A stretch of DNA of 64,000 bases, taken from assembly GCA_016787225.1 (NCBI GenBank), contig JAEUUY010000006.1:124001-188000 (forward strand). The letters are read 5' to 3'. Below, piece after piece: positions 35,714 to 44,889 of this stretch. A program made the position numbers and the translations under genes. Numbering within the stretch: the stretch's first letter is position 1; every line of letters starts with the position of its first letter. The notes beneath the pieces were generated by a model. It was not told the origin of the DNA. It did not search any database and worked only from the letters and a program-made list of their open reading frames with translations. The DNA is from Chitinophagales bacterium. GTDB lineage: Bacteria; Bacteroidota; Bacteroidia; Chitinophagales; JADJOU01.

Positions 35714-36569
35714 TCACCTCCTGTGCTGAAGGCATTTCAATCTTGATCTCAAAGTTAAATTGGCGCGTTCTATTCGATTAGTACCATATCGAAGAGTAGA
35801 GTGAAGTTCGGTAGGTAGTGCACTTTTATAAAGATTTAATTTATCTGTATTAATTTTGCGAGCTTTAGACAATACCAAACTATCTGTGACCATGCGTATC
35901 TTAGATAAATTTCTTCGTCCAATACCATATCGAACTATTTTTTTTGATTCTCTTTCATAGGCGAGGACTATCCAATAGAGCCTCTCCTTTCTCTTAATAA
36001 AAATTCTCATACCAATAGCGGTTTTAAATGATCCAACCCATTTTAAAACCTTGCTATGGTAAATGCCGTAGCTGTATTTGTTTAGTGCAATGAGCCATGC
36101 GACATTGGACTATTACTAATACGCTTACGGTATCATTTCATCTACTTCGTAGATGCTATTGCTCAATAGCATAGGGAGGGAGATATTTTCAGAAATTGCA
36201 GATAATCTTCTATAGAAAGTATTCGTAGATATCTTATATTAACCTTATTGAAAGACATTACAAAATATAATGCCGACCTTGAATTTTCTTAGTGAGGAAC
36301 GAACTTAGAAATATTCGGTTCGGTATAAGTAATCTAGCTATATTACGAACACCACAACCCTCCTTAATTAAGGCACATACATTATGACTTAAATAGGGAT
36401 CATAAGCTTTGTAAGTATAAAAATTAAGAAGATACTTACCACAAGATTTACAATAAAACTTTTGCTTGCCAGTTTTCGTTTTTCCGTTTTTAATCAAGCT
36501 TTTACTTGAGCAATACGGACACTTCTGGGTATCAGTCAATCTGATACACGAGGTCATGAGTGTAGCCAT
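35714..36569 (-). pseudogene. Decayed IS1-family transposase (insA/insB remnants)
   Basis: Minus-strand order is an InsA-like zinc-ribbon and HTH segment (36569-36258; CPYCSSKSLIKNG, FYCKSCGKY, LIKEGCGVRNIARLL), then a gap, then an InsB-like DDE catalytic half (about 36100-35714; RKERLYWIVLAYERE, NTDKLNLYKS, GTNRIERANLTLR). InsA homology breaks off after ARLL, as after a frameshift. In the catalytic half the usual first Asp appears replaced (KTAIGMRIF), the second Asp and the Glu remain, and the C-terminus is cut off after RLKCLQHRR. No intact transposase can be read, so the element should be immobile. Confidence 0.8.
36139..36172. repeat. Twin perfect hairpins inside the IS remnant
   Basis: CATCTAC-TTC-GTAGATG (36139-36155) is followed with overlap by ATGCTATTG-CT-CAATAGCAT (36153-36172). 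Both stems are perfect (7 and 9 bp). They lie where the InsA-InsB reading frame is interrupted and may be a small REP-like insertion. Confidence 0.6.
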
Positions 36570-41728: not shown

Positions 41729-41743
41729 TTGTATTTTACAATT

Positions 41744-43114
41744 ATGGAAGAAAAAACACAAAATTCTATTTTTTATGACCAAAAACTGTTTTTCTCCAGT
41801 CAAAAAACTAAAGACATTGACTTTAGAAAGCACCAATTGAAAAAACTAAAGTCCGCCATTTTGGCAAATGAGGATGATATTTATACAAACCTATTTTTAG
41901 ACCTACATAAATCTAAGCAAGAAAGTTTTTTTACAGAGGTTGGATTGGTTTTAAACGAAATTGATTTATTCATTTCCAAACTTAATTCTTGGTCTTCAGA
42001 AAAATCCGTTTTTTCCCCTTTTTATTTATTGCCTTCTCGTAGTTATATCCAATACGACCCTCTTGGTATTTGTCTCATTATTGTTCCATTTAACTATCCC
42101 TTTCAGCTAGCATTTTTACCACTGGTTGCCGCTATTGGTGCAGGAAACTGCGCTACTGTAAAGGGATCCGAACACACCCCTCATACGAATAAAGTTATTC
42201 ATAAGATAATATCTACTTGTTTCGACTCCAACTATGTCTGTTTTATAGAAGGAGATAAAGCTGTCAGTGAGGAACTAGTGAGGCTTCCTTTTGATTTGAT
42301 TTTTTTTACTGGTAGCACTACTGTTGGGAAAAAAGTCATGGCTGCAGCAGCAGAAAATCTAACCCCAGTTATCTTAGAACTGGGAGGAAAAAGTCCTTGT
42401 ATAGTAGATAAAACGGCTAACTTAACTCTAGCAGCTCGACGTATTGCTTGGGGAAAGTTCATCAATGCCGGGCAAACCTGCATTGCGCCCGATTATCTAA
42501 TCGTACACAACGATATTGTTGGTGATTTTCTACCTATTCTTACATCTGAGATTGAAAAGTTTTATACCAATGATAGCGCAGAATCTCCTTTCTATGGCAG
42601 GATTATCAACGATATTGCTTGGGAGAGATTAAAAAGAATGCTAAATGAAAATGAAATTTATTATGGTGGTAAGTCTGATATATCTAACCTGTATATTTCT
42701 CCCACGATTCTATATCCTATTAGTCCTGATAGCCTTTCTATGTCCCAGGAAATTTTCGGCCCTATTTTACCTGTTCTTATCTATGAAAATGATAGGGATC
42801 TTGAATCCCTATATCCCAAAGAAAAGCCTTTATCGCTTTATGTTTTTGGTTCATCTTCTTGGGCTAGAAAAATTTTGGCTCGTTTTCCATCTGGTGGAGC
42901 ATGTGTAAATGATACGGTAATTCATTTTTCAAATAAAAATTTACCCTTTGGTGGTGTTGGTGCCAGCGGTATGGGACATTACCATGGCAAAGCTGGTTTT
43001 CTTGCTTTCTCTCATTCCCGCGGTATTGTGCGATCCTACAATTGGATTGATTTGACTTTTCGATATCCTCCATATAAACTTTTCAACTGGATAAAAGGTG
43101 TTTTCCGTTTTTGA
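41744..43114 (+). CDS. Class 3-type fatty aldehyde dehydrogenase
   Basis: NAD(P)-dependent oxidation of aldehyde to acid. Motifs: FTGSTTVGKKVM for cofactor binding, LELGGKSPCIV with the general base Glu, GQTCIAPDY with the nucleophilic Cys. The C-terminus (FRYPPYKLFNWIKGVF) is the membrane-near tail of class 3 and fatty aldehyde dehydrogenases. The ATG at 41744 is preferred to the TTG at 41729. It starts 15 bases after alkB, so the two probably work in series on long-chain substrates. Confidence 0.88.
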   Translation: MEEKTQNSIFYDQKLFFSSQKTKDIDFRKHQLKKLKSAILANEDDIYTNLFLDLHKSKQESFFTEVGLVLNEIDLFISKLNSWSSEKSVFSPFYLLPSRSYIQYDPLGICLIIVPFNYPFQLAFLPLVAAIGAGNCATVKGSEHTPHTNKVIHKIISTCFDSNYVCFIEGDKAVSEELVRLPFDLIFFTGSTTVGKKVMAAAAENLTPVILELGGKSPCIVDKTANLTLAARRIAWGKFINAGQTCIAPDYLIVHNDIVGDFLPILTSEIEKFYTNDSAESPFYGRIINDIAWERLKRMLNENEIYYGGKSDISNLYISPTILYPISPDSLSMSQEIFGPILPVLIYENDRDLESLYPKEKPLSLYVFGSSSWARKILARFPSGGACVNDTVIHFSNKNLPFGGVGASGMGHYHGKAGFLAFSHSRGIVRSYNWIDLTFRYPPYKLFNWIKGVFRF

Positions 43115-43174
43115 CTATAGCTAATCAATTATTAGCAACATATTATACCTAACCTAATATTTATAATACCTTTT

Positions 43175-43456
43175 TAGAATATCTCAGATGTTTCGCAAAT
43201 GAGCTTAGATGTTGAACTTTGGGGATCGCCCATAACGGAGAAGCCGTAAAAATTGCGACGGAAGAGCGTAAAAATTTCAAGAGGAGGAACGACGAAATTT
43301 GAAATTTTAGCTCAGAGGAAGACAATTTTAGGCTTCGCAGTGTTAGGGCTTGACTTTTTTTGTTACTTTTTTGCCTTGACGCAAAAAAGTAAAGAAAATA
43401 GAATAAACGTAGATGGCATGCTGAGAAAGCATTTGCGAATTAAGTATGATATTCTA
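43175..43456. mobile_element. 282-bp MITE-like element with TIRs and target duplication
   Basis: Ends TAGAATATCTCAGATG (from 43175) and the complement of ...GATATTCTA (to 43456) form 27-bp terminal inverted repeats with 21 matches, including a perfect TTCGCAAATG inner block. Directly outside lie TACCTTTT at 43167-43174 and again at 43457-43464, an 8-bp direct repeat expected of a target duplication. Inside are perfect hairpins AAAATTTCAA/TTGAAATTTT (43271-43308) and TTACTTTTTTGC/GCAAAAAAGTAA (43363-43392). No plausible transposase is encoded, so it would need one in trans. Confidence 0.78.
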
Positions 43457-43476
43457 TACCTTTTAAACTTTTTACG

Positions 43477-43507
43477 TTTAATTTTCTTATTAACAAACCT
43501 ATCTTTG
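43477..43507 (+). promoter_or_regulatory. Candidate anmK promoter
   Basis: TATCTTTG at 43500-43507 is a perfect TAnnTTTG -7 box, with TTTA at 43477-43480 as a near -33 box and a 19-base spacer. The anmK ATG follows after 14 bases, so the leader would be very short. Confidence 0.55.
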
Positions 43508-43521
43508 CACTTCTAATAACT

Positions 43522-44571
43522 ATGCCGCTTTATTATTCTCTAGGTCTTATGTCGGGTTCATCTTTGGATGGTCTTGATATTTGTTATTCTTCTATAGAGG
43601 TGTCAGATGATAAATATTCTTATAAAATTCTCTCTGGGACTACTATACCTTTTTCTTCTTCTCTTTATCTTCAATTAAAAAATTGTCGCGACCTATCAGA
43701 GGAGAATTTAGCTCTTCTTGACCATAATTTTGGTCAATGGATGGGTAAACAATGCAAAGAATTTATAGCGAAAAAGAATATTATAAAACTCGATTTCATA
43801 AGTTCACACGGACATACAGCTTTTCATTTCCCCGATAAAGGTATCACGAAACAAATAGGTTCTGGTCAATCCTTGGCCGTTTCTTCTGGTTATCGCACGA
43901 TTACCAATCTTCGAGAACGCGATGTATCAGCTGGTGGTCAAGGAGCCCCCATTGTTCCAATTTGTGATTTGCTTTTTTTTCCAGAGATAAAATATTGTCT
44001 CAATCTGGGTGGTATTATGAATATTTCCATAAAACAAGAGGAATCTATTATTTCCTCTGATATTGGTGTTTGTAATCAGGTGATTAATTTTTTTGCCGAA
44101 AAGCTTGGTTTCTCTTATGATAAAAACGGCGAGCTAGCTAAAAAAGGTAATATTAATCAGAATTTACGAAACTCGTTGAACCAGGTTTCGTTTTTTCATT
44201 CCCCTTTTCCTAAGAGTTTAGACAATAGTTTTTCACAAGAAATAATTGCTATCTGTGAAAAAAGCAAACTATCTGAATACGATATCCTGAGAACATTTTA
44301 CCAGCATATTGTTGATCAAATTTTATTTTTTATCCCAGACTCTCGCTCTATATTAATTACTGGAGGCGGTGCTCATAACGTCTTTCTTTTAGAATTATTA
44401 AAAGAAAAAGGATTAAACCTCCTATCCATCGATAGTCATCTAATAGATTACAAAGAAGCCTTGGCTATGTCCTTGATCGGTGTTCGATTTTTAGAGAATA
44501 AATTCAACGTTTTGGCTTCTGTGACTGGTGCAAGAGAAAATACAATTTGCGGAAATATTTATAACCCTTAA
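43522..44571 (+). CDS. anmK: Anhydro-N-acetylmuramic acid kinase
   Basis: Phosphorylates and opens 1,6-anhydro-MurNAc during cell-wall recycling. ASKHA-fold motifs: GLMSGSSLDGLD at the N-terminus, SSHGHTAFHFP, GQGAPIVPICD, LNLGGIMNIS, and ITGGGAHNVFLLELL near the end. 349 residues is normal. It begins 65 bases after the MITE-like element and is followed 15 bases later by a YbaB-like gene. Confidence 0.93.
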   Translation: MPLYYSLGLMSGSSLDGLDICYSSIEVSDDKYSYKILSGTTIPFSSSLYLQLKNCRDLSEENLALLDHNFGQWMGKQCKEFIAKKNIIKLDFISSHGHTAFHFPDKGITKQIGSGQSLAVSSGYRTITNLRERDVSAGGQGAPIVPICDLLFFPEIKYCLNLGGIMNISIKQEESIISSDIGVCNQVINFFAEKLGFSYDKNGELAKKGNINQNLRNSLNQVSFFHSPFPKSLDNSFSQEIIAICEKSKLSEYDILRTFYQHIVDQILFFIPDSRSILITGGGAHNVFLLELLKEKGLNLLSIDSHLIDYKEALAMSLIGVRFLENKFNVLASVTGARENTICGNIYNP

Positions 44572-44586
44572 TATAAAATTTTAAAC

Positions 44587-44889
44587 ATGTTTGACATTCT
44601 ATCTAAATTCAGTGAAATCAAAGAAAGAGCTGCTAAGTTGAAAGAAACCGTACAAGAAAAATCTTTCACAATTTCTGATGAAAAACAATTAGTGACTATA
44701 ACCACAAATGGTAAAAAAGATATTACTTCTCTTTCTCTACACGATGATTTTTCTAAATTATCTAAGTCTGACCAAGAAATTATTTTGAAAGAAACCCTTC
44801 AAAAGTCACTAAAAGAATCAGAATCCTTTATTATCAGTGAATTAAAAAAGGTTGTACCTGATATACCAGGAATGAATATTTTCGGTTAA
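44587..44889 (+). CDS. YbaB/EbfC-like nucleoid-associated protein
   Basis: 100 residues. N-terminal helix, central three-strand sheet (FTISDEKQLVTITTNGKKDI) and C-terminal helices match the small YbaB/EbfC DNA-binding family, which is often co-located with recR or dnaX; here it follows anmK. Relatively divergent from the canonical form, so confidence is moderate. Confidence 0.7.
   Translation: MFDILSKFSEIKERAAKLKETVQEKSFTISDEKQLVTITTNGKKDITSLSLHDDFSKLSKSDQEIILKETLQKSLKESESFIISELKKVVPDIPGMNIFG

Follow-up and report, generated by a model that had tools for sequence, protein, structure and literature searches.

How did a short stretch of inverted repeats and hairpins come to lie between an aldehyde dehydrogenase gene and anmK, a cell-wall-recycling gene, and what does its interior represent? 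In the first-pass annotation of the window, i.e., the whole stretch of 64,000 nucleotides analyzed here, the stretch was described as a 282-bp MITE-like element with terminal inverted repeats (TIRs), long perfect hairpins, and a target duplication. Comparison with related genomes bears out the element, with TIR arms matching at 21 of 27 positions, flanking TACCTTTT copies, empty sites in three congeners, and sister copies elsewhere. Yet, the annotation missed the main point, as the interior of the element is a phylum-wide covarying hairpin repeat.

An insertion upstream of anmK

The element proper is exactly 282 bp (positions 43175-43456 of the window), and the features of the locus are as follows:

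41729-43114, + strand: left neighbor, aldehyde dehydrogenase gene (Aldedh; Pfam PF00171, E 1e-73)
43167-43174, no strand: left target-site duplication TACCTTTT, whose exact copy at 43457-43464 likewise abuts the inverted ends
43175-43201, + strand: left TIR, TAGAATATC-N8-TTCGCAAATG, with the same arm at G001:C35 (TAGGATATCTTATTTAATTCGCAAA)
43226-43353, + strand: long hairpin in the center (CGCCCAT...AGGGCTTG), interrupted by two internal loops, GC-GTAA-AAA / TTT-TA-GC (RNAalifold and pair counts, 8 copies)
43354-43401, + strand: second hairpin, CTTTTTTTGTTACTTTTTTG...CAAAAAAGTAAAG, better conserved across Bacteroidota than any other part (retained in 18 diverse copies)
43430-43456, - strand: right TIR, with the same arm at G001:C35 and G001:C105
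43457-43464, no strand: right target-site duplication TACCTTTT, a copy of the left 8-mer
43522-44571, + strand: right neighbor, anmK, anhydro-N-acetylmuramic acid kinase (Pfam PF03702, E 8.9e-54)

The two TIR arms of 27 nt (78% complementary) consist of a perfect outermost block, TAGAATATC (9/9), and a perfect inner block, TTCGCAAATG (10/10), separated by eight mostly unmatched bases, and the ends can be written as TAGAATATC...TTCGCAAA. When the flanking 120-base stretches were shuffled, none of 200 shuffles matched the observed score of duplication and inverted ends. The duplication had alternatively been counted as 9 bp, but this variant is not preferred over 8 bp, since the right TIR ends with the A that precedes the right copy and both sister copies have 8 bp.

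The aldehyde dehydrogenase gene and anmK are adjacent without the element in three congeneric genomes (G001, G002, and G003), all with the gene order retained. The gap before anmK spans 407 bp in the window's genome (G000), while it is 86 bp in G001 and ~6 bp in G002 and G003. In G001, the nearest relative (AnmK protein 73% identical), the intergenic sequence is unalignable to that of the window, leaving a pre-insertion site with a single TACCTTTT unreadable. The window element is a real insertion, and the finding is the reverse of a region shared by all relatives at one position with no copies elsewhere.

Pfam searches confirm both neighboring genes, and the element lies, as first proposed, between the aldehyde dehydrogenase gene and the anmK promoter, as a -7-like box (TATCTTTG, 43500-43507) is found outside the element, which is located upstream of it. 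No -7-like box was found inside the element, and a search for terminator-like sites gave none. The likeliest effect on the host would be a shielding of anmK from read-through of the aldehyde dehydrogenase gene. The spacing of ~6 bp in G002 and G003 suggests that the two genes form an operon. The order aldehyde dehydrogenase - anmK - ybaB (41729-44889) is retained in four genomes of the genus. Finally, the view that the element holds no credible gene still stands, since the sole open reading frame over it (43253-43516, + strand, 87 aa) has no Pfam match. This reading frame crosses the hairpin core and then runs out of the element, and wherever such reading frames cover core copies in Bacteroidota genomes, they are probably annotated as spurious hypothetical proteins.

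A small family in one genus

Further copies were sought with a covariance model of the core built from eight copies of the window's genus (R1), revealing ten core copies across five genomes of the genus, with a single copy in the window's genome. The copies are mostly found at unrelated loci, while G002:C99 and G003:C24 have common flanks and thus represent one ancestral locus. Two copies in G001 (C35 and C105) have the same arms, beginning 51 bp before the core, and each is flanked by its own perfect 8-bp duplication (ATATTTTA at G001:C35 and TAAATTTT at G001:C105). Clear ends together with a duplication are present at only three of the ~9 distinct genus loci, and elsewhere the core has no recognizable ends. 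As most loci of the genus display the core in this form, it may move or persist without this MITE shell. Around another core copy (G001:C106, L026:1138-2492), a different repeat, CCGCATAAGATTTTCTAACTCGCTTTGCTCGCAGAAATCTAGCGCGG, has many occurrences and looks like another hairpin repeat of the genus.

A search for the TIR pattern, allowing up to three mismatches, gave only two cases in which an inverted pair encloses a core, the window element and G001:C35. Among 199 genomes of the order, the pattern exceeds chance only in this genus and is at chance level elsewhere, and no inverted pair was found at insertion-sequence distance. The window's genome has no further copy of the TIR pattern, and the element is a single copy there; weak BLAST matches to the element ends (L003-L011) were mostly single matches inside genes and were rejected.

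A search of the genus for a mobilizing transposase gene with the same TIRs found none in the five draft genomes, with the caveat that insertion sequences may be lost from draft assemblies. As potential partners, five DDE_Tnp_1 loci were considered in the genus and have other ends or none, and the IS1595 fragments and copies of G001 end in ...GCGGACTCTCATAAA, unlike the element. TIR searches for autonomous partners in more distant genomes (G060 and G016/G104) returned nothing but additional copies of the MITEs or cores and, at contig ends, larger repeats. In G104 (L135-L140), a near-identical flank of ~60 bp plus the element start recurs at many contig ends, indicating that a larger core-containing repeat breaks the assembly there. 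With a single copy and no partner found in its genome, the window element is probably stranded and immobile there now.

The window element thus displays TIRs, a target-site duplication, and a short length without a transposase gene, is polymorphic in its insertion (no element between the two genes in G001, G002, and G003), and has the same ends as two copies in G001, for a total of three with the single one in G000. The target duplication, inverted ends, empty orthologous sites, and copies elsewhere, two of them with the same ends, argue that the element is very probably a MITE, i.e., a non-autonomous DNA transposon, from a small family that this analysis detected only in one Saprospirales genus. 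Among prokaryotic MITEs, QMITE2 of Coxiella burnetii has inverted ends of 23-29 bp and direct repeats of 7-9 bp (PMC10969869), and the window element resembles it in size class, inverted ends, direct repeats, a structured AT-rich interior, intergenic location, and lack of a gene. Unlike QMITE2, no parent insertion sequence was found for the window element, and its interior is common to a phylum-wide repeat in elements with other ends. By description rather than sequence, the element may also be likened to BrickBuilt of Porphyromonas gingivalis (PMC4596501) and the MITE of Cardinium (PMC9769881), both short, non-autonomous, and from the same phylum. While the Cardinium MITE is derived from IS982, with the known IS982 parent still present (PMC9769881), no parent was found for the window element. 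REP palindromes, including GTAG- and CGTC-tagged palindromes, are likewise intergenic, multi-copy, and hairpin-forming. REPs measure 20-40 bp (PMC3733652), and an identity with REP/RAYT palindromes was rejected for the window element of 282 bp with inverted ends and an 8-bp duplication.

The hairpin core within and beyond the genus

The central ~170 nt of the element comprise the long hairpin and a CTTGACTTTTTTTGTTACTTTTTTG hairpin. The folding energy of the whole element has a z-score of -4.2 as DNA and -5.4 as RNA and, both ways, beats all 200 dinucleotide shuffles. The hairpins are long, as the first-pass annotation stated, but not perfect, as the 21-nt arms of the second hairpin (43354-43374/43381-43401) are 86% complementary and the central hairpin has internal loops. 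In other lineages, the internal loop reads GC-GTTAAG-AAA / TTT-TA-GC by eye.

Across the eight copies, 96.2% of the paired cells are standard pairs, and both sides have changed in 22 of the 46 core pairs, compared to a mean of 11.6 in shuffled alignments, with none of 500 shuffles as high; these figures count sequences, not independent events. As a control, sliding the partners by 1-3 columns made the number of pairs changed on both sides fall to 1-8. For example, a stem segment that is GCC/GGC in the window aligns with TTC/GAA in G003:C10 and GGC/GCC in G004:C3. Judged from these alignments, the base pairing of the core is maintained by compensatory change.

Although R1 was trained on the window's genus only, it matches 48 of 120 genomes of the order (E up to 0.01). 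A second profile from 18 diverse cores (R2), with base pairs only in the last hairpin and matches that therefore rest mainly on sequence, matches 53 of 198 complete Bacteroidota genomes (E up to 1e-4), i.e., about a quarter of the sampled high-quality genomes. When GTDB genomes were searched for an exact pattern, the matches fell on five contigs, all from Bacteroidota. The core resembles Rfam candidate structured RNAs of Bacteroidetes, e.g., Flavo-1 (PMC2864571), in being a covarying structure of Bacteroidota found by comparison. Unlike these candidates, it matches no Rfam model above gathering score: no family matches the core in the window or in the loci of twelve relatives, and miRNA-type matches far below the gathering scores were rejected as chance. 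Papers on MITEs, REPs, stem-loop families, and structured RNAs of Bacteroidetes in the open-licence literature do not describe the core repeat, leaving room for an earlier description elsewhere. The plasmid collection gave no match to the window element, and the core of G208 has no match in the plasmid or phage collections, while the core of G038 has one weak match to a Haliscomenobacter plasmid.

Beyond the genus, the core is carried by elements with other ends. The element of G060 spans about 360-390 bp and has CATTGTTGTCCGG ends, with exact 9-bp duplications at six copies (e.g., ATTTCTTAT and ATTTCATGT), while that of G016 spans about 370-385 bp and has CAGAGATGGTCAAT ends, with exact 10-bp duplications at three copies. 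The copies of G086 have ends AGGGATATTCAG and no clear duplication, and those of G032 and G038 have only the core in common. The differing duplication lengths of 8, 9, and 10 bp point to different transposases. In addition, G208 has an intergenic core-type tandem array (L158:7933-9119; 333-bp units, 3.6 copies, 95% match). Core-type tandem arrays are also seen between housekeeping genes in other Bacteroidota (L159, L160, L161, and L162), that of L160 in a surface-polysaccharide locus. A cassette-array reading of the tandem cores of G208 and G182 was rejected, as the one array inspected has its units in ordinary intergenic DNA flanked by housekeeping genes.

Mismatched pairs were used to ask which strand folds. 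If palindromy was kept in the duplex only, G-C and A-T pairs should decay equally to G-T and A-C, so G-U and A-C were counted on the core strand (the CTTGACTTTTTT strand), each pair and type once. The G-U to A-C counts are 6:1 in the window's genus, 7:1 in G038, 3:0 in G032, and 9:8 in G016/G104. G086, with the core on the opposite strand, has about 4:2 inside the core, and G060 was excluded since most of its counted pairs fall outside the core. Pooled, the counts come to about 29:12. The excess of G-U over A-C in three of the lineages examined suggests folding of one strand, either as RNA or as single-stranded DNA, but falls short of proof, as the events are few and related and a strand mutation bias may contribute.

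How the element and its core may have spread

In the proposed mechanism, a transposase supplied in trans from elsewhere, likely of the DDE type given the duplication and inverted ends, would have cut the target with an 8-base stagger. Joining of the 27-bp inverted ends to the cut target would then have produced the TACCTTTT duplication between the aldehyde dehydrogenase gene and anmK, upstream of the promoter-like box of anmK. Between the ends, the element carries the two-hairpin core of ~170 nt as a member of the Bacteroidota-wide repeat, and the pairing of the core is probably kept for the folding of one strand, either in a transcript or in single-stranded DNA. Candidate roles of the core include an RNA or a hairpin that may aid persistence, protection, or recognition of the element.

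Alternatively, mobility or function could reside in the core itself, as a structured repeat present across the phylum that spreads by its own route (e.g., as a folded single strand) and has been captured by different MITEs. This possibility, to which we give the smaller share of belief, would account for cores with other ends and duplication lengths (9 bp in G060, 10 bp in G016), bare copies in G032 and G038, tandem 333-bp arrays, and the many genus copies without clear ends. Yet, ends and duplications fully explain the insertion in the window and the two sister copies, the copies without ends may simply be decayed, and neither a duplication nor an enzyme for core-only movement was found.

A degraded IS1-family element is also present in the window (35714-36569, - strand), with separate fragments of an IS1 transposase (PF03400) and an InsA zinc ribbon (PF03811) and no clear ends. 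IS1 family elements generate 8-9-bp duplications, so the window element could be a deletion derivative of an IS1-type element mobilized by IS1 transposase. However, this origin is very unlikely, as the remnant (35.7-36.6 kb) shows no matching ends, its only inverted repeat being internal (25 nt, 72%) and offering no recognizable ends to compare, and G000 has no further copy of the TIR pattern. While strong covarying hairpins upstream of anmK might also be taken for a structured regulatory RNA, i.e., a leader or terminator of anmK or the aldehyde dehydrogenase gene merely resembling a MITE, this is hardly credible for a structure that is missing at the same place in three congeners with gene order retained, adjoins unrelated sequence in its other genus copies, has no Rfam match and no terminator-like site, and lies upstream of the anmK -7-like box.

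With the MITE reading preferred, the element itself is of an ordinary kind, though from an undescribed family, and the Bacteroidota-wide structured core is the part worth following. Speculatively, the core could be a Bacteroidota-wide structured module not described before, kept by selection on the fold of a single strand (RNA or single-stranded DNA); such a module would travel in MITEs with unrelated ends and target duplications of different lengths and would also multiply alone in intergenic tandem arrays. With its repeated internal loops, the core is a testable target for studies of transcription, protein binding, and single-strand folding, and the presence of one core in MITEs with different ends raises the issue of how a passenger structure might move from one transposon family to another. 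If the core is indeed an independent structured module, it would be more than the filler of one MITE and would add a new type to the structured elements that move or travel as passengers.
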